Source: Paludibacter sp.
GTDB lineage: Bacteria > Bacteroidota > Bacteroidia > Bacteroidales > Paludibacteraceae
DNA length: 64,000 nucleotides
NCBI RefSeq assembly: GCF_009712605.1
Contig: NZ_WASO01000003.1
Location: forward strand, 300,523 to 364,522
Direction of reading: 5' to 3'
The notes under the pieces are model-generated. The model was not told the origin of the DNA, searched no databases, and saw nothing but the letters and a program-made list of their open reading frames with translations. The translations under genes were made by a program, and so were the position numbers. Shown piece after piece: positions 36,550 through 63,446 of the stretch (position 1 is the stretch's first letter; the number at the start of each line of letters is the position of its first letter).

Positions 36550-36552
36550 TTG

Positions 36553-36625
36553 TGATTCAGCTGGGATTCGAACCCAGGACCCCATCCTTAAAAGGGATGT
36601 GCTCTACCGGCTGAGCTACTGAATC
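36553..36625 (-). tRNA. tRNA-Lys (anticodon UUU), copy 2
   Basis: The 73 bases fold as a tRNA: acceptor GATTCAG/CTGAATC, D-arm GCTC...GAGC, anticodon stem CATCC/GGATG with loop CTTTTAA (anticodon TTT), and T-arm CTGGG/CCCAG with TTCGAAT. CCA is not encoded. It is identical to the copy at 36661-36733 and would be second in the transcript. Confidence 0.97.
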
Positions 36626-36660
36626 AGGGCTTTTACGCCTATATGTAGTTTGAGTTTCGG

Positions 36661-36733
36661 TGATTCAGCTGGGATTCGAACCCAGGACCCCATCCTTAAA
36701 AGGGATGTGCTCTACCGGCTGAGCTACTGAATC
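36661..36733 (-). tRNA. tRNA-Lys (anticodon UUU), copy 1
   Basis: Identical in sequence and fold to the copy at 36553-36625, from which it is separated by 35 bases. It is first in the transcript, 30 bases downstream of a TATCTTTG promoter element. Confidence 0.97.
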
Positions 36734-55035: not shown

Positions 55036-55719
55036 TTATTCGGTATCTTTATCCTGTGCTGTTTTTTGATGTTTAAGCACCTTGGCGTCCAGATAAAACA
55101 CGAGTTCTTCCATAATGTTGTTGCAGTGGTCACCGATGCGTTCGATCTTGCGGAGCAGCGTTACCACATTCAGACTGTACAGAACATCTTCTGGGTGTGC
55201 GGTAATATGTTTTGCCAAAACCAGAATAGCATCTGAATAGCAGTCGTCTACTTTGTTGTCGATGGTAAAAACGACACCTGCCATTGCAGTATTCTCTTCT
55301 TCGAGAGCCAGTTTGTCTTTCTCAAGCATTTCAAGTACACAGTCGAACATGTCTTCTATTTTCAGCTCTTTGAGTAATTGCAGGTGCTGATTGTGTCCGT
55401 CGGTTTCAAGCACAAAACGGGCAATGCCGTCGGCAAAGTCACCGATGCGCTCGAGGGTTTTGTTGATTTTGAGAACGGAGAGTACAAAACGAAGGTCGAT
55501 AGCTACCGGGCTGTAAAGCGCAATGTAGTTTTCGCAATCGCTGTCGATTTTCAGCTCGAAAGCATTGACTCTTTTCTCTCGGCTCATTACCACGCGGGCT
55601 AACTCTTCGTCGCCGGTGAGCAAGGATGTTTTTGCTTTCTCCAATTGCGAATGAACCAAGCTCCACATATCGGAGATCGCTTTCTTGAGTTCCAGTAATT
55701 CTGTTTCTGTATGTTTCAT
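55036..55719 (-). CDS. phoU: Phosphate uptake regulator PhoU
   Basis: PhoU links the Pst transporter to the PhoR sensor and limits phosphate uptake. The 227-residue product is all-helical with two PhoU repeats, each carrying the E/D-x3-D metal-binding pattern (ARVVMSREKRVNAFELKID in the first, KVDDCYSDAILVLAKHI in the second) and LERIGDFADGIARF and IERIGDHCNNIMEEL. It is the last gene of the pst unit, 60 bases after pstB and before a terminator. Confidence 0.95.
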   Translation of the reverse strand: MKHTETELLELKKAISDMWSLVHSQLEKAKTSLLTGDEELARVVMSREKRVNAFELKIDSDCENYIALYSPVAIDLRFVLSVLKINKTLERIGDFADGIARFVLETDGHNQHLQLLKELKIEDMFDCVLEMLEKDKLALEEENTAMAGVVFTIDNKVDDCYSDAILVLAKHITAHPEDVLYSLNVVTLLRKIERIGDHCNNIMEELVFYLDAKVLKHQKTAQDKDTE

Positions 55720-55779: not shown

Positions 55780-56529
55780 TCATCCAAAACGACCGGTGAT
55801 ATAATTCTGAGTTTGCTCTTTATCGGGACTGAGGAATATCTTTTTTGTGTCGTTGAATTCGATCAGTTCGCCCAGCATAAAGAATCCTGTTTTGTCGCTT
55901 ACGCGTGCAGCCTGCTGCATGTTGTGTGTAACAATCACCACCGTGTAGTCGTGTTTCAGTTCAAAAATCAATTCTTCAATCTTAGAAGTCGAGATCGGGT
56001 CGAGTGCCGAAGCCGGTTCGTCCATCAACAATACCGAAGGTGAAATGGCTAATGCGCGGGCAATGCAAAGACGCTGTTGCTGGCCACCGGAAAGTTCGAA
56101 GGCTGATTTTTTCAACTTATCTTTTACCTCTTCCCAGAGAGCGGCCTGTTTGAGAGATTTTTCAACGGTTTCGGCAATTATCTTTTTATCTTTTACCCCA
56201 TTGACACGCAATCCGTAGGCAACATTCTCGAAAATCGATTTTGGAAATGGATTGGGCTTTTGAAACACCATACCGACAGTCTTGCGTAATTCGTCTACGG
56301 ATACGCTTTTGTCGTAGATATTTTGACCGCCCACAATACATTCGCCATCGAGATGTGTTCCGTCAATCAGGTCGTTCATACGGTTGAAAAGACGGAGAAA
56401 AGTTGATTTGCCACAGCCCGAAGGACCGATAAATGCAGTGACCGAGTTGGAGTCGATTTGCATATTGATGTCTTTCAACGCGTGAAAATCTCCGTAGAAA
56501 AAGTTTACATTCTTAGCTTCAAGTTTCAT
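55780..56529 (-). CDS. pstB: Phosphate ABC transporter ATPase PstB
   Basis: The 249-residue ATPase has Walker [15 protein letters not shown], the signature [16 protein letters not shown], Walker [13 protein letters not shown] and the switch His in [10 protein letters not shown]. The motif pattern and the conserved FNRMNDLI following Walker A identify PstB. It lies between pstA and phoU on the minus strand and drives phosphate import in the Pst complex. Confidence 0.97.
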
Positions 56530-56571: not shown

Positions 56572-57429
56572 TTATTTGCTGAATCTCCGTCTCAGAAGAT
56601 TTGCCAGCAAATTCATAATTAGTACGATGGCAATCAGGACTATTGCCGTACCGTAGGCCATCGGTCGGGTTGCTTCCAGATCGGTTCCGCTGGTAGCGAT
56701 CACATACAAGTGGTAAGGCAGAGCCATTACCTGATCAAACACCGAAGTCGGAAGATGCGGCAGGAAATAAGCTGCTGCAGTGAACAGGATCGGCGCAGTT
56801 TCACCCGATACGCGGCCGATAGAGAGGATCAATCCTGTCATCACATTTGGAAATGCCGCCGGAAGAATTACCCTGCGAATTGTTGTGAGTTTGGTAGCAC
56901 CGAGCGCCAGACTTCCCTGACGATAGGTGTCCGGTATAGCCTTGAGTGCCTCTTCGGTTACCCGGATGATAAGCGGTAATGCCAGTAGTCCCAGTGTAAA
57001 CGAACCGGCCAGCAACGAATCTCCGAAGTGTAGTTTGTTCACGAAAAGTGACATACCGAACAGACCGAATACGATGGAAGGAATGCCTCCCAGGTTGTTG
57101 GTCATTACGCGGATCACTCTCACGATATGTTTGTTTGTTGCGTACTCGTTCATATAAATTCCCGACATTACGCCAATGGGGAAAGCTACCAGCATACTGC
57201 CGATAACCAGATAAAAAGTACCGATGATGGCCGGGAAGATTCCGCCTTTCGTCATTCCGTCTTTTGGAGCTGAGGTGAGGAATTCCCAGTTGATTACGCC
57301 GATTCCACGGATGACAATAAATCCGATGATGCAGAATAGGATTCCCACAACCAGATAGCTCATCAAACGGAAAAGAGAAAAGAAGATCGCCTGATTGGCC
57401 CGTTTTCCTGTAAATTTATTCTTTTGCAT
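56572..57429 (-). CDS. pstA: Phosphate ABC transporter permease PstA
   Basis: An inner-membrane permease of 285 residues from the ATG at 57429 (MQKNKFTGKRANQA). A longer frame reaches 57504, but it would overlap pstC and has no usual N-terminus. It has six membrane segments and the EAA-like loop ALKAIPDTYRQGSLALGATK that contacts PstB. GRVSGETAPILFTAAAYF is characteristic. The gap to pstC is 22 bases. Confidence 0.94.
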   Translation of the reverse strand: MQKNKFTGKRANQAIFFSLFRLMSYLVVGILFCIIGFIVIRGIGVINWEFLTSAPKDGMTKGGIFPAIIGTFYLVIGSMLVAFPIGVMSGIYMNEYATNKHIVRVIRVMTNNLGGIPSIVFGLFGMSLFVNKLHFGDSLLAGSFTLGLLALPLIIRVTEEALKAIPDTYRQGSLALGATKLTTIRRVILPAAFPNVMTGLILSIGRVSGETAPILFTAAAYFLPHLPTSVFDQVMALPYHLYVIATSGTDLEATRPMAYGTAIVLIAIVLIMNLLANLLRRRFSK

Positions 57430-57451
57430 AACTCTATATTCTTTTCCGTGG

Positions 57452-58657
57452 TTACTGAACTTTGGGTTCTTTACGAATGATTTCGGCCCAGATGCTGATG
57501 CCAAGTGTCAGCACAAAGAGGATAGCACCAAGCATAAACAGCGCCTGATATTGTACGCTTCCCATGGCCGATTCGCCCAGTTCGGCGGCGATGGTGGCCG
57601 GGATGGTACGCACCGGTTCTGTCAGTGAGTGTGGAATCACGGCCGCGTTTCCGGTAACCATCAGCACTGCCATGGTTTCGCCGATAGCCCGACCGATGCC
57701 CAACACAATTGCGGCCATTATACCCGATGATGCATACGGAATTACGACCCGGTAGATGGTTTGCCAGTGGGTAGCTCCGAGAGCCAAACTAGATTCTTTC
57801 ATCGCCAATGGCGTGGTGCGCATGGCATCTTCAGCTACAGTAATGATGGTAGGCAAGGCCATGATGGCTAAAACGATTGCGCCTGCCAGTGCTGTTTCGC
57901 CTACCGGTAGGTGAAAAATGCTACGTATGAGCGGGACAATTACGATTAGTCCAAAAAAACCGTAAACCACAGATGGAATACCGGCCAAAAGTTCGATTAG
58001 CGGTTTCAGTATTTTTCTGACGCGGTTGCTGGCTATCTCTGCGAGATAAATTGCGACAGCCATTCCAAAAGGCAAGGCAATAAGTATTGCTGCAATACTC
58101 ACCCAAAGCGTTCCCAGAATAAGAGGAAGAACGCCGAACTGTGCTGCCGGTGTAGCGGTGGGAAACCACTCTTTACCTCCGAAATATTCTTTCAGGGTGA
58201 TGGTTTCGGCAGGAAGGACGCGCCCCTGAAAGTTGATATTGATAAATTGTTCGGGGAAAAATGCCAAAGCGCCCGGCTTTGCTGCAATCGCCTCACTTAA
58301 TTTCTGGGGCAAATGCTCAAAGTTAGCGCCGATTTCCTCTTCGGTATATTGAGAAGCAATATCGTCCATACGCAGCGGTTCGATAGGAATGTCGTCGCCG
58401 CCGACTTGTTTCCAGGACGTGATGTTGCCATCGAAAATTTCTTTTACTTGTTTGGGAGTAAGGTTTTGGATTTTATTGGAACGGTTTACACAAAGCACAT
58501 AACCCTTCTCAACGGTTGATGACTTGAACAACCCCCAACCCTCAGTGAAAAGAAAAATACTGATCAGTACAATGACCAGAGTGGTGGTGCCGCCACTGAG
58601 GCGCAGCGTCCATTCTATAAGGGTTTCTCCAAAACGGTTTCTTTTTTTATTGAACAC
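57452..58657 (-). CDS. pstC: Phosphate ABC transporter permease PstC with PstS-like loop
   Basis: A permease of 401 residues, about 100 longer than E. coli PstC. Residues about 51-150, between the first membrane helix and the permease core, carry a PstS-like block: VNRSNKIQNLTPKQVKEIF and ITSWKQVGGDDIPI, close to VNPSNKVTNLTREQLEGIF and ITNWKQVGGADMPI in this window's PstS. The rest shows the permease signature AMRTTPLAMKESSLALGATH. It lies between pstS and pstA. The extra domain may bind phosphate or dock PstS; this is inferred. Confidence 0.94.
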   Translation of the reverse strand: MFNKKRNRFGETLIEWTLRLSGGTTTLVIVLISIFLFTEGWGLFKSSTVEKGYVLCVNRSNKIQNLTPKQVKEIFDGNITSWKQVGGDDIPIEPLRMDDIASQYTEEEIGANFEHLPQKLSEAIAAKPGALAFFPEQFININFQGRVLPAETITLKEYFGGKEWFPTATPAAQFGVLPLILGTLWVSIAAILIALPFGMAVAIYLAEIASNRVRKILKPLIELLAGIPSVVYGFFGLIVIVPLIRSIFHLPVGETALAGAIVLAIMALPTIITVAEDAMRTTPLAMKESSLALGATHWQTIYRVVIPYASSGIMAAIVLGIGRAIGETMAVLMVTGNAAVIPHSLTEPVRTIPATIAAELGESAMGSVQYQALFMLGAILFVLTLGISIWAEIIRKEPKVQ

Positions 58658-58785: not shown

Positions 58786-59598
58786 TTATTTTAATTCCAG
58801 ATAACCAACTTTATCAACGATTGCCTGACCTTCTGCTGAGAGAATGTAATTGATGAAGGGTTTTACTTTCGCTTCCGATTTAGCTTCGTAGTAGAGGAAC
58901 AACGGGCGAACGATCGGATATTTGCCACTCTTGGCATTTGCTTTTGTCGGTTGAACAAATGTTTTGCCTCCGTCATACGAAACGTGGATTTCTTTTACGC
59001 TACTGTTTGCATAAGCCATTCCAACATAACCGATAGCGCCTTTTGTCTGGCTAACCGATTGAATGATAGCTCCTGTGGCAGGCATACTCAGAATTCCCGA
59101 TTTGTAGTTCTTGTTTTTCAAAACATGTTCTTTGAAGAATTCGTAAGTTCCGGAAGTCGTTTCGCGAGAGTAAGCAACGATCGGCATATCAGCACCACCA
59201 ACCTGTTTCCAGTTTGTGATTTTACCTGTGAAAATACCTTCCAACTGTTCGCGGGTAAGGTTAGTTACCTTATTTGACGGATTAACCACAATCGAGAGTG
59301 CATCTTTTGCCATTACTACCGATTTTACAGCCTTGCCTCCGTTTTGCATTTTCATCTTTTCGTCGAATTTGATGCTACGTGATGCCATTGCCAAATCGGT
59401 TGTGCCTTCGATCAGAGCGGCAAAGCCGATACCAGATCCACCACCGGTTACTGTTACTTTGGTACCCGATTTTTTCATATACGATTCAGCCTCTTTCTGT
59501 ACGAGAGGTAGACATGTATCAGAACCTTTTACTTTTTGTGCGCTTACCATTGAAGCAAACATCGCTACAAGAGCGAATGAAATAAGAATGCGTTTCAT
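58786..59598 (-). CDS. pstS: Phosphate-binding protein PstS
   Basis: The periplasmic phosphate receptor of the Pst system, 270 residues. The signal peptide (KRILISFALVAMFASMVSA) is followed by GSDTCLPLVQ and the phosphate-loop segments VTGGGSGIGFAALIEGTTD and SRETTSGTYEFF. It heads the pst gene set, and a Pho-box-like promoter lies about 300 bases upstream with a small reading frame between them. Confidence 0.96.
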   Translation of the reverse strand: MKRILISFALVAMFASMVSAQKVKGSDTCLPLVQKEAESYMKKSGTKVTVTGGGSGIGFAALIEGTTDLAMASRSIKFDEKMKMQNGGKAVKSVVMAKDALSIVVNPSNKVTNLTREQLEGIFTGKITNWKQVGGADMPIVAYSRETTSGTYEFFKEHVLKNKNYKSGILSMPATGAIIQSVSQTKGAIGYVGMAYANSSVKEIHVSYDGGKTFVQPTKANAKSGKYPIVRPLFLYYEAKSEAKVKPFINYILSAEGQAIVDKVGYLELK

Positions 59599-59634
59599 CT
59601 TAGAAATAATTTATAATTAAGCGTTTATAATGTA

Positions 59635-59826
59635 CTATTGAAATATAACTCTCCGCAGAAACCAGGATAACCGATATGTCATTTCAAAACTTAAAGAATC
59701 GATCAACCTTTCGATATTTCCCGGAATACTAACAATAAATTCACCAATGTTTTTCGGAGCAGCAAGCTTTTTTTCAGCTTCGAATCTCCATGTAACTACC
59801 TGATTTTGCTGCAATACAAGTTCCAT
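59635..59826 (-). CDS. Possible small protein in the pst leader
   Basis: A 63-residue frame (MELVLQQNQVVTWRFEAEKK to a basic, hydrophobic end YRLSWFLRRVIFQ) lies inside the predicted long leader of the pst message, downstream of the Pho-box promoter. No family is recognised and there is no signal peptide. The start has a plausible AT-rich upstream. It could be a real small protein or a chance frame; I favour neither strongly. Confidence 0.35.
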   Translation of the reverse strand: MELVLQQNQVVTWRFEAEKKLAAPKNIGEFIVSIPGNIERLIDSLSFEMTYRLSWFLRRVIFQ

Positions 59827-59904
59827 AATGTCGTAGTATCTTGTTAAACTATAAATCTTTTTTGCCTTGCGTCTTACCTTAATCAGCGATAACTTTTTCT
59901 ATTG

Positions 59905-59940
59905 CAAAAGTAGAGTTGTGATGTTACGAAAATATTACAG
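59905..59940 (-). promoter_or_regulatory. Pho-box-like promoter of the pst genes
   Basis: On the minus strand two 11-bp units, CTGTAATATTT and TCGTAACATCA, are followed by a 6-bp spacer and TACTTTTG (-7). The repeats replace a -33 element. Unit one is close to the E. coli Pho-box half-site CTGTCATA. The same layout, base for base in spacing, occurs at the porin gene. Confidence 0.75.
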
Positions 59941-60035
59941 AGGAGTAAAGATATTGTTGCCGGAAGAAAGCGCTGGAGAGTTTGTTTTCAGAGCGAAAAA
60001 CTTAATTTCTAAATCTCTCGCTCTGATATTTGGTG

Positions 60036-61379
60036 TTAGAACTTGAATTGCAGGCGAACGGTAAACAAATTGTCAAGAATGTCTTTTGAGAAATCTGTTT
60101 TAAGATCAGCTGAAGCAAGATTTATTGATTTTTCGTTTTTTACATTTTCATAATATACCTGCAAGCGGAGAGCAGGGTTAATGCGCCAGAGAGCTCCGAT
60201 TCCAAGTGTATTGTAAGCAATATCAGCGGATGTGGTTTTTACGTTATAAGAGGTCGCGGCTCCTATCTCGTTACCACTCACTTTGGTGTTCGGATCATAA
60301 CGGTCGTACTTCAATACTAATGAAAAAGGCGATTGGCCAAGGTCCTGGATAAGAATGGCATACCAACCACTTGTATTTCGAATATAGGTGTCGCCTGACG
60401 GATTGGTAAATGAGTTTGGACTGGAACTGCTGGATGATGTTCCGGGTTGAGTTCCCCACAAATATTCGGCACGTAACTGCGTCATACCTAATGATGATTC
60501 AACACTGAATTGACCATCAAAACCATAGTATACACGTTTGGCGAATTGACTCTTGTTTGATGCGGAGTTATCTAATACAAACCCATTCCCTGTTGAGGTG
60601 TAAACGTTAACCGTACCTTGATAAAGGCCACCATTATAATAAGAAGCACCAAGTCCCCATTTTGCAGTAGAACCTATTGATTTTGAGGCAATAATTTGGC
60701 CAATGAAGTCCATATTGCTTTTGGTCTGAACGTTAATTGAGTTCCCCCCGAATAAACCACCCTGAATTTTGATGAAATTAAGTGGGGAGGTAGCTGCTGG
60801 TTGTAACACAATCATAGCTCCTAAATCCTGTTCGTCAGGGAACAGATTTTGTACTATGCGTGAACGTTCGGGAGATTCGAGAAGAGATGATGAATAAGCA
60901 ACTTCATTACCAAAGGGACGGTCGAATACCCCTGCACGAAGAGCACTTGTACCGAACCATGGATCTTTAACGTTCAAAAAAGCTTTTTTTATCGAAACGG
61001 AGGAAATTCCGGTCGCCTTTGTGGTACTACCATTAGCTGATTCGCCAATATTTAGTTCGAATGTTCCGGAAGCAAGACCGCCATTATCATAAGTGAAATT
61101 GATGCGGCCACGACGAATTCCGAAACGGTTGAAGGATGACAAATTCCCGTTTTCAACAGTATTACTACCCCCAACCTTAGCTCCGGCATAAGCCTGTCCC
61201 CATTGCCATTGCGGTTGTATATAACCGGATATCTTCAGTGCATTTAATTTATCTACCGTACTACTTAAAGTTTCAACTTTTTGTTGAACCTGTTCAAGCG
61301 GAGTTGCTTCTTCTTCCTGAGCAAATGTAGTAAACGAAGCAGCAGCAAAAGCTGCAATCAAGAGAATCTGTTTCTTCAT
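60036..61379 (-). CDS. Phosphate-selective porin (OprO/OprP-like)
   Basis: The 447-residue outer-membrane protein has a signal peptide (KKQILLIAAFAAASFTTFAQ) and a short coiled-coil-like stretch (about residues 25-50). A long barrel follows, beginning KISGYIQPQWQWGQAYAG and containing RFGIRRGRINFTYDNGGLAS, as in the OprO/OprP family. It ends in QFKF with a terminal Phe. It lies upstream of pstS, has a matching Pho-box-like promoter, and presumably brings phosphate or phosphate esters across the outer membrane. Confidence 0.9.
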   Translation of the reverse strand: MKKQILLIAAFAAASFTTFAQEEEATPLEQVQQKVETLSSTVDKLNALKISGYIQPQWQWGQAYAGAKVGGSNTVENGNLSSFNRFGIRRGRINFTYDNGGLASGTFELNIGESANGSTTKATGISSVSIKKAFLNVKDPWFGTSALRAGVFDRPFGNEVAYSSSLLESPERSRIVQNLFPDEQDLGAMIVLQPAATSPLNFIKIQGGLFGGNSINVQTKSNMDFIGQIIASKSIGSTAKWGLGASYYNGGLYQGTVNVYTSTGNGFVLDNSASNKSQFAKRVYYGFDGQFSVESSLGMTQLRAEYLWGTQPGTSSSSSSPNSFTNPSGDTYIRNTSGWYAILIQDLGQSPFSLVLKYDRYDPNTKVSGNEIGAATSYNVKTTSADIAYNTLGIGALWRINPALRLQVYYENVKNEKSINLASADLKTDFSKDILDNLFTVRLQFKF

Positions 61380-61409
61380 AAGAATTTAGTATTGGTTTCT
61401 TTTCAAGCG

Positions 61410-61445
61410 CAAAGGTCGTATACGGGTGTTACAAAACTATTACAA
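61410..61445 (-). promoter_or_regulatory. Pho-box-like promoter of the porin gene
   Basis: On the minus strand TTGTAATAGTT and TTGTAACACCC (two 11-bp units) are followed by a 6-bp spacer and GACCTTTG, one base off the TAnnTTTG -7 element. Length and spacing equal those of the pst promoter. The start codon is about 30 bases downstream. Confidence 0.75.
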
Positions 61446-61535
61446 CCGTATGAAGAAAAGGATAAACAACTTGCGTGTAAAGATAGTTCGACTTAGAGCA
61501 GAGTGTCTTTGTATCTTATTAATTAACAGAATAAA

Positions 61536-61601: not shown

Positions 61602-63446
61602 CTACAGTTGCTTGGCTACTTCTGCCAGACGTATAAATTCGTGGCGGTAGCCTTGTGGATCGTTGCCCAATCCTTTGCGGGCAAGTTCTGTTACTTTGTC
61701 GTAAGTGGCGTCGCCTTTGAAGTCGGAGTCGCGGAGCAGTTGCGAAAACATGGCAACGGCTGAGGCAAAAGCAAAATCTTCACTCATTTTCTTGTCCCGA
61801 TCGCTGGCCATTACGGGAACTTCCATTTTGATACTGGTATCGCTGTCAATTGGTTTGTAGCGCAGTTTTACTGTCATCAGTTCATTACTGTTGTTGGCGG
61901 TAGCTGTCGAAGCATTTGTCTTTTGATATTTGAGATCGTCCACGCCACCGTAATTATTTTTTACGCCTACAGGAATGATTTCGTAGAAAGCGGTAACGGT
62001 GTGGCCGGCTCCCAGTTCTCCGGCATCTTTTTTGTCGTCATTAAAATCCTCTTTGTTGAGTAGGCGGCTTTCGTAACCGATCAAACGATAGGCACTCACG
62101 TATTTTGGATTAAATTCCACCTGAAGTTTTACATCTTTGGCAACAGCATACATGGTGGATCCAAATTCACTGACAAGTACTTTGTTGGCTTCCTGCAGGT
62201 TGTCGATGTAAGAGTGATTCCCATTTCCTTTTTCTGCAAGAGTTTGCAATTTAGCATCCTTGTAATTGCCCATTCCATAACCCAAAACTGTGAGATAAAC
62301 GCCGGTTTTACGTTTTTCTGTAATCAGACTTTCCAAATCATCGGTTGATGAAACGCCAACATTAAAATCGCCGTCGGTGCAGAGGATGATGCGGTTGTTG
62401 CCTCCTTTGATAAAATTCTTTTCGGCAATTTTATATGCCAGCTGAATACCGGCTCCACCGGCAGTCGAACCGCCCGCTTGGAGGTTATTCAGAGCTTCTG
62501 TAATTTTTTGTTTGTCGCTTCCCGGGGTGGAAGGCAATGCTTCACCAGCTGCTCCGGCATAGGTCACAATAGCCACGCGGTCTTTGTCGCGGAGGTTATT
62601 TACGAGCAACTTTATGGAAGCAATAACCAATGGTAAACGGTTGGCACTGCCCATCGATCCCGAAACATCGATCAGGAAAACAAAATTGGAAGCCGGAAGG
62701 TTTTCCGAAGGAATCTCTTTTGCTTTCACTCCAATGCGAACCAAAAGATGATCTTTGGCCCAGGGACAACTCTGTGTTTCAGTCAGAATATTAACAGGAT
62801 GCTTACCCGTAGGATTCGGATAGTTGTACGAAAAATAGTTGATGCACTCTTCGGTACGGATCGAATTCTTTTCGGGCTTCTGTCCGAGATTGATCATCCG
62901 GCGTATATTGCTGTAGGAGGCAGCATCCACATCCAGCGAAAAAGTTGAAAGAGGATCGGCTTTCGCATCTTTGAATCGGTTTTCAGCAAACGATTTGTAC
63001 TCTTCATTCTTTTCGGAGTTGTAGTCGTAAGCCGGGGCTGGCGAAGGATAATATCCGCTTTGTACCTGAACACCGGCTACACTGCCACACATTGACTTCA
63101 TCTTTTGAACGCCATAACCAACCACCATTACCTCACTAAGCGTCTTGGTGTCGGGTTGCAAAGCCACATCGATTCGGATTTTGGTTGCTTTAATTTCTTG
63201 CTTTATATATCCGATATAGGAAAATTCGAGTTTCTTGCCTTTTTCAACATTGATAGAATATTGACCGTTGGTATCGGTAAGTGTACCGACATTGGTTCCT
63301 TTTATTGTAACGGAGACTCCTATCAAAGGTGAATTATCGCTGGCATCGGTTACTTTGCCGGTAACGGTTAGAACTTCGGCATTGGCAAATCCGAAAGAGA
63401 TGAGGAATAAGGCGAAACAAATGGCCTTCGTGCAGGTTGTTTTCAT
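61602..63446 (-). CDS. Exported VWA-domain protein (YfbK-like) with carboxypeptidase-like N-terminus
   Basis: The 614-residue protein has a signal peptide (to about residue 23) and a carboxypeptidase-regulatory-like beta-sandwich (about 25-100, VTDASDNSPLIGVSVTIKGT) ending in EVMVVGYGVQK, the sequence normally found before TonB plugs. A YfbK N-terminal region (about 155-240) is followed by a VWA domain with an intact metal site (D260-x-S262-x-S264, T328, D358) and a C-terminal DUF3520-like region. Likely a surface-adhesion or complex-assembly protein. An ECF sigma factor gene lies divergently upstream. Confidence 0.9.
   Translation of the reverse strand: MKTTCTKAICFALFLISFGFANAEVLTVTGKVTDASDNSPLIGVSVTIKGTNVGTLTDTNGQYSINVEKGKKLEFSYIGYIKQEIKATKIRIDVALQPDTKTLSEVMVVGYGVQKMKSMCGSVAGVQVQSGYYPSPAPAYDYNSEKNEEYKSFAENRFKDAKADPLSTFSLDVDAASYSNIRRMINLGQKPEKNSIRTEECINYFSYNYPNPTGKHPVNILTETQSCPWAKDHLLVRIGVKAKEIPSENLPASNFVFLIDVSGSMGSANRLPLVIASIKLLVNNLRDKDRVAIVTYAGAAGEALPSTPGSDKQKITEALNNLQAGGSTAGGAGIQLAYKIAEKNFIKGGNNRIILCTDGDFNVGVSSTDDLESLITEKRKTGVYLTVLGYGMGNYKDAKLQTLAEKGNGNHSYIDNLQEANKVLVSEFGSTMYAVAKDVKLQVEFNPKYVSAYRLIGYESRLLNKEDFNDDKKDAGELGAGHTVTAFYEIIPVGVKNNYGGVDDLKYQKTNASTATANNSNELMTVKLRYKPIDSDTSIKMEVPVMASDRDKKMSEDFAFASAVAMFSQLLRDSDFKGDATYDKVTELARKGLGNDPQGYRHEFIRLAEVAKQL

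Follow-up and report, generated by a model that had tools for sequence, protein, structure and literature searches.

A putative Pho-box/-7 composite at the porin and pst promoters of Paludibacter sp. and its relatives in Bacteroidota

The pst and porin promoters of a phosphate gene cluster in Paludibacter sp. share one composite of a Pho box and a -7 box, confirmed here at the positions first given by a sequence-only reading of the same DNA. Judged from sequence, both elements are very probably Pho boxes at which PhoB would act as an activator in place of the -33 element, switching on the porin gene and pstSCAB-phoU. The Pho-box reading, which the earlier reading had already put forward, is supported by the sequence itself, the spacing of the units and their fixed distance from the -7 box, conservation among relatives, a nearby gene for a PhoB with an E. 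coli-like recognition helix, and sites at other phosphorus genes, including genes outside the training set. From these we infer that PhoB is the binder, that its binding activates, and that it contacts the sigma factor.

It is also reasonably likely that Bacteroidota keep the geometry of E. coli PhoB despite a sigma factor that reads another core promoter, that a three-unit array fully replaces the -33 element, and that the regulon comprises uptake, phoB, phosphonate use and phospholipid replacement. The composite would provide a concrete, scannable candidate for the phosphate-starvation signal of Bacteroidota, from which the Pho regulon could be read in their genomes, with lipid remodelling as a predicted part. 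It would also be a clean test case of an OmpR-family activator working with a sigma factor whose promoter elements are -33/-7 and not -35/-10.

Layout of the two promoters and their gene cluster

The window, i.e., the whole stretch of 64 kb that was analysed, carries a porin gene followed on the minus strand by pstS, pstC, pstA, pstB and phoU:

60036..61379, minus strand: Porin_O_P outer-membrane porin (PF07396, 24.4 bits, cut-off 20.9)
58786..59598, minus strand: pstS, phosphate-binding protein (TIGR02136, 253.7 bits, cut-off 206.6)
57452..58657, minus strand: pstC (TIGR02138, 286.6 bits)
56572..57504, minus strand: pstA (TIGR00974, 300.3 bits)
55780..56529, minus strand: pstB (TIGR00972, 406.5 bits)
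55036..55719, minus strand: phoU (TIGR02135, 171.5 bits)

The Porin_O_P porin is the likely entry route of phosphate. The PstC protein (57452-58657, minus strand) contains a PstS-like stretch in its N-terminal part (PF12849 at residues 41-132), and a matching stretch is also present in PstC-sized frames of relatives and in the PstC of genome G074. Upstream of the porin gene, a von Willebrand-type protein with a carboxypeptidase-like N-terminal domain and a YfbK C-terminal domain is encoded at 61602-63446 on the minus strand. Elsewhere in the window, a tandem pair of tRNA-Lys (ttt) genes is located at 36552-36733, minus strand.

The two promoters are composed of the following elements:

59901..59954, minus strand: pst promoter, 54-bp Pho-box/-7 composite (32.9 bits with a matrix from other loci, top of the window)
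59944..59950, minus strand: pst degenerate upstream unit CTTTACT, in register at 11 bp (predicted from the three-unit array of relatives)
59933..59939, minus strand: pst Pho unit TGTAATA, read in the sequence
59922..59928, minus strand: pst Pho unit CGTAACA, read in the sequence
59905..59912, minus strand: pst -7 box TACTTTTG, 9 nt past the last unit, a spacing fixed across relatives
61406..61459, minus strand: porin promoter, 54-bp Pho-box/-7 composite (28.4 bits, second in the window)
61449..61455, minus strand: porin degenerate upstream unit CTTCATA, in register at 11 bp and the same in locus L114
61438..61444, minus strand: porin Pho unit TGTAATA, read in the sequence
61427..61433, minus strand: porin Pho unit TGTAACA, read in the sequence
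61410..61417, minus strand: porin -7 box GACCTTTG, which starts with GA instead of TA

Read on the minus strand, the pst promoter runs TGTAATA, TTTT, CGTAACA, TCACAACTC and then the -7 box TACTTTTG, and the porin promoter runs TGTAATA, GTTT, TGTAACA, CCCGTATAC and then the -7 box GACCTTTG; the formula common to both is TGTAATA-N4-YGTAACA-N9-(-7 box). In each promoter the two downstream units are strong, and 11 bp further upstream there is a third, weaker one. The core element of Bacteroidota promoters is known as the -7 box and has the consensus TAnnTTTG, with which the pst box agrees and from which the porin box deviates. The identical architecture of two repeats and a -7 box described by the sequence-only reading is present at both sites at exactly the positions given, but the weaker third unit had been missed and the porin box departs from the consensus at its first letters.

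The -7 box is located ~30 nt ahead of the porin start and ~300 nt ahead of the pstS start. The pst transcript would carry a leader of ~300 nt (59598-59905, minus strand), which is kept in four genomes of the genus, this one included, with the box 341-348 nt upstream. The stretch from the pst promoter to pstS was also examined as a possible leader RNA, but Rfam finds no family in it; the one match scores far below its gathering score and falls inside the porin gene.

Rarity, conservation and position of the array

Within the window, the two-unit/-7 pattern with at most one mismatch matches at the two known sites only, and two matches were obtained in none of 100 shuffles, a test that is biased because the pattern was taken from the sites themselves. 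A less biased test used an independent matrix, for which 88 sites at other loci were taken and L114 and L115 omitted. Over the 64 kb it gives 32.9 bits to the pst site and 28.4 bits to the porin site, and the third-ranking position reaches 9.8 bits; the best score in the reversed window is 15.5 bits and the maximum over 60 Markov-simulated 64-kb single strands is 16.5 bits. A further model, termed R1, was trained on 39 sites including both window sites, so that the scores it gives them (pst 30.9 bits, E 8e-7; porin 15.2 bits) are partly circular.

The scan of the genome with a simple consensus, as proposed in the sequence-only reading, did not serve its purpose. Exact matches to the two-unit pattern in the genome of this organism (3.7 Mb, 98% complete) are limited to the two known sites, a control with a unit spacing of 12 bp yields 3 exact matches, and looser matches show no excess over background: 71 for the composite with up to three mismatches against 85 for the backward pattern, and 23 for the bare box with one mismatch against 33. 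Such counts indicate that the consensus is too weak for a genome scan and that a matrix is needed. They also agree with the view that these are ordinary -7 promoters, the AT-rich upstream repeat having arisen by chance or by recent promoter duplication. That view is scarcely credible and is already disfavoured by the independent matrix score, which is far above all else in the window, and by the exact 11-bp periodicity and single fixed TTTG distance found across many genera; the flanking sequences, moreover, differ between the two window promoters.

Conservation was assessed in the best 80 named loci among the PstS relatives listed, which provided 109 regions upstream of porin or pstS genes; a recognisable relative of the window porin is present at 59 of the 80 pstS loci. 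Pairs of TGTAAYA on the same strand, with at most one mismatch, are spaced by 11 bp in 26 regions, by 22 bp in 32 and by 33 bp in 12, against 4, 5 and 4 in the reversed control and 7, 6 and 1 on the other strand; the off-register spacings of 10 and 12 bp are found in 1 and 0 regions. Of the 47 regions with a pair, 26 have TTTG at a distance of 13 nt past the last unit. Lesser peaks at 2, 24 and 35 nt (6, 4 and 14 regions, respectively) are offset from 13 by multiples of 11, which fits other units of the same array. The matrix fitted to the relatives, seeded with the window motif, reads YGTAACA-N4-YGTwwnn-N4-YGTAAYA-N9-TAnnTTTGC, in which the outer units are strong (YGTAAYA/CTTAACA) and the middle unit is weak.

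Ten-fold held-out scoring placed 86 of the 109 regions above 12 bits (51/55 porin, 35/54 pstS), compared with 1/109 for reversed sequences, 5/109 for the other strand and 14/633 for other genes of the same loci; the site counts are not independent because the 80 loci are related. The 23 regions at or below 12 bits include some where pstS follows the porin gene in one operon. In 47 of 55 loci the start of pstS is 15-118 nt past the end of the porin match, which means that the two genes often share a single promoter. A site is found at 67 of the 77 loci scored, the other three of the 80 being without an upstream region long enough to score. Genomes with a distant type of PstS (about 30-32% identity) carry a site above 10 bits in four of six cases (L108, L109, L112, L113). 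The depth of conservation within the phylum rests mainly on loci with Bacteroidales-type titles; Sphingobacteriales- and Chitinophagales-titled loci (L181, L182) have porin sites of 25.1 and 34.3 bits, both in the training set.

The elements consist of at least two 7-bp units repeated every 11 bp and are located at phosphate genes, as expected of a Pho box. The proposal of a motif for the Pho regulon of this lineage stands in so far as the sites occur at phosphorus genes, but the motif is shared well beyond the lineage and usually takes the form of a three-unit array.

The array also holds a fixed position upstream of the core promoter, where it replaces the -35/-33 element. Of 85 Pho sites, about 1% have TTG at 19-20 nt ahead of the -7 box, compared with 12% of 112 other -7 boxes in the same loci, the two sets having been split by the matrix; that is, a TTTG-like -33 element ~20 nt upstream is missing, as judged on the set of sites rather than on the two window promoters alone. 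This depletion indicates that the array occupies the -33 position and supports the same placement in the sequence-only reading. GTAA at gap 11 is present in 48% of the 85 Pho sites and 0% of the 112 other boxes, which again argues against an ordinary -7 promoter, although the contrast is partly built in because the matrix split the two sets.

The putative activator and its proposed mode of action

A PhoB-type regulator is encoded in the genome; its gene is located 4.6 kb past the window end and is followed by that of a PhoR-like kinase (NF053855, 497.3 bits, just below the cut-off of 500). The PhoB protein is of the Bacteroides type and matches NF053854 with 348.3 bits (cut-off 270) and TIGR02154 with 235.9 bits, below the cut-off of 296.2. 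Among solved structures, E. coli PhoB is the best match to its DNA-binding domain and MtrA is the best match to the whole protein. The recognition helix reads DRTVDVHItRLRK here and DRTVDVHIrRLRK in E. coli (in full letters, DRTVDVHITRLRKKIEP and DRTVDVHIRRLRKALEP, respectively), and in other genera it is more often DRTIDVNITRLRKKIG. Among what we take to be the DNA contacts of E. coli PhoB, R201 and R203 are kept, R200 is replaced by T and R219 of the wing by S. Of 23 genomes whose PstS is close (E below 1e-50), 18 have a PhoB above the cut-off, as do 41 of the 97 others.

Like the E. coli Pho box, the array is built of 7-bp units arranged head to tail every 11 bp. In E. coli pstS, phoA and phoE, the distance from the last unit to the TA of TATTTT, TATAGT and TAAAAA, which we take to be the respective -10 boxes, is likewise 9 nt, and phoE itself has TGTAATA-N4-TTTAACA; E. 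coli phoB, the fourth promoter read, does not have the 9-nt TA geometry. Unlike in E. coli, the core is GTAA rather than GTCA, the -7 box TAnnTTTG stands in place of the -10 box, and the middle unit is weak. With the matrix of the relatives, the scores of the four E. coli promoters are no higher than -5.1 to 5.2 bits, and the units here, YGTAAYA, do not agree with the E. coli unit CTGTCAT. This does not exclude them from the Pho boxes, since a Pho box is defined by units repeated every 11 bp and its consensus varies between species, according to the account in PMC4415409.

At low phosphate, PhoR would phosphorylate PhoB, which would bind head to tail on the 7-bp units, one per 11 bp. Between the gene-proximal unit and the -7 box TAnnTTTG there are exactly 9 nt. 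Bound PhoB would take the place of the -33 element and recruit RNA polymerase, and the porin gene and pstSCAB-phoU would be turned on together. The simplest reading is an activation of class-II type, in which phosphorylated PhoB on the downstream unit may contact the polymerase.

In Bacteroides fragilis, PhoB (PhoB/PhoR = BF1576/BF1575) binds a 512-bp fragment of the pst promoter in EMSA, and deletion of phoB lowers pstSCAB 103- to 542-fold (PMC3547664, Table 2). The PhoB-dependent genes reported there are pst, one porin O and a phosphate/sulphate permease; a second porin O responds oppositely, and the array induction of pstCAB in the wild type is no more than 4-fold (PMC3547664). The two systems have pst and porin in common as candidate PhoB targets; the text of the B. 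fragilis study maps no box and uses the term Pho box once, as background (PMC3547664). It is very unlikely that PhoB binds the sites but represses, or acts from another surface instead of activating from -33. Deletion of phoP in Riemerella anatipestifer does raise 34 of 50 candidate direct targets (PMC9603813), as repression would have it. The fall of pstSCAB in the B. fragilis deletion, the position of the array, equal to that in E. coli pstS and phoA, and the missing -33 element of the Pho sites all point instead to activation.

Sites at other genes and the candidate regulon

Eight of the 14 sites above 12 bits at other genes of the relatives' loci are phosphorus-linked by family search, some of the 14 genes being named by eye. 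The eight genes encode a PiT transporter (PF01384), whose site reaches 35.6 bits, a PlcP-like phosphoesterase, a further PstS that exceeds the TIGR02136 cut-off, a DedA protein and, with matches below cut-off, a partial PhoR-like kinase and three response regulators for which PhoB is the best or second-best NCBIfam match. The remaining six sites are ahead of genes for TonB-receptor-like proteins, for a protein encoded behind one of these, for a DEAD-box helicase and for BatA. The site ahead of the BatA gene (L173:2726; PF07584, 40.8 bits) scores 15.0 bits, and Bat genes are among the Riemerella PhoP targets.

The 12 R1 matches listed for the own genome comprise pst, the porin, a DedA-glycosyltransferase operon, a PlcP-like phosphoesterase, a TonB receptor and seven others; seven of the 12 are without an evident phosphorus link and the TonB receptor is one uncertain case. 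The sites ahead of the DedA-glycosyltransferase operon and the PlcP-like gene lie outside the window, at G000:C3:177191 and G000:C3:198134, respectively. Among the 23 matches listed for three further genomes, seven are at clear phosphorus genes: two porins, pstC (divergent from a porin; TIGR02138, 302 bits), two plcP, a PhoB paralogue and the phosphonate ammonia-lyase PbfA (NF049939, 670.6 bits). Two are possible cases, namely an OlsF-like aminolipid synthase (below cut-off) and a gene near pst, and 14 are without such a link. The R1 genome searches score 150 of about 1400-2600 first-look candidates, so that match counts are lower bounds; their incompleteness is evident from the phoB site of the own genome, which scores 16.6 bits by the matrix and is absent from the R1 run.

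Upstream regions outside the training set were scored for three of these genes. For plcP of relatives, 13 of 17 regions exceed 10 bits (9 of 13 outside the own genus; reversed 0). For DedA-glycosyltransferase, 8 of 10 do, mostly from one genus (reversed 0), while of the three regions from other genera a single one does; the own-genome sites of both genes and their same-genus copies are selected, because they were found by R1. For phoB of relatives, the figure is 19 of 27 (reversed 0), the 27 being those of 30 loci that were read by the helix pattern after L284, L286 and L299 had been dropped. Gene order also ties plcP and DedA-glycosyltransferase to phosphate: plcP is located directly behind pstS in G008, DedA and glycosyltransferase directly behind pstS in G074, and the same pair behind porin-pstSCAB-phoU in L115.

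The regulon appears to extend to phoB itself and to genes of lipid remodelling. Neither the PlcP-like proteins nor the glycosyltransferases reach the cut-offs of the listed NCBIfam models, and their function is assigned by analogy; on that basis, the sites ahead of both genes suggest a phosphate-controlled lipid remodelling. In this they would resemble marine bacteria, in which plcP and a glycosyltransferase are tied to phosphorus deficiency and have predicted Pho boxes, as described in PMC4796936.

The sites may be real and yet belong to another OmpR-type regulator, ArcA-like or PhoP-like and not dedicated to phosphate, which we regard as unlikely. OmpR-family regulators in general favour such direct repeats. 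The PhoB model gives 17 matches in the own genome, one site of the relatives is located upstream of a BatA gene, and four site-bearing genomes (G092, G094, G106, G109) are without a PhoB above the family cut-off. In Riemerella anatipestifer, PhoP gives 583 peaks upstream of 764 genes, 50 of them with changed expression, and the main text makes no mention of pst (PMC9603813). Against a regulator of this kind, the best PhoB match of the own genome is far ahead of the next regulator (235 vs 157 bits) and lies beside the cluster, the sites track phosphorus genes, phoB included, and the Riemerella system is itself raised in phosphate starvation according to its authors (PMC9603813).

In the DAP-seq motif of PhoP from Riemerella, a member of the Flavobacteria, the most conserved bases are TTTAACA, close to the CTTAACA variant of the relatives' array; PhoP binds phoPR itself, and dedA and a TonB receptor are among the EMSA targets (PMC9603813). 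The text of that article describes no direct repeat and likens the motif to ArcA, not to a Pho box (PMC9603813). The Riemerella motif and the Bacteroidota Pho unit very probably belong to one family of sites, which makes the half-site less novel, but not the architecture; no Pho-box/-7 architecture of Bacteroidota was found in the open-licence literature searched.

Two observations concern phoB promoters. The same-genus genomes G003, G004 and G007 have no close PstS, yet PhoB and the DedA-glycosyltransferase site are kept, and their phoB promoters score weakly (5.4-7.2 bits). In many of the phoB promoters of L275-L289, the first two units form the palindrome-like TGTAAYATWTATTACA, and the middle unit of these promoters is TTACATA or a close variant, a form also seen in E. 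coli pstS.
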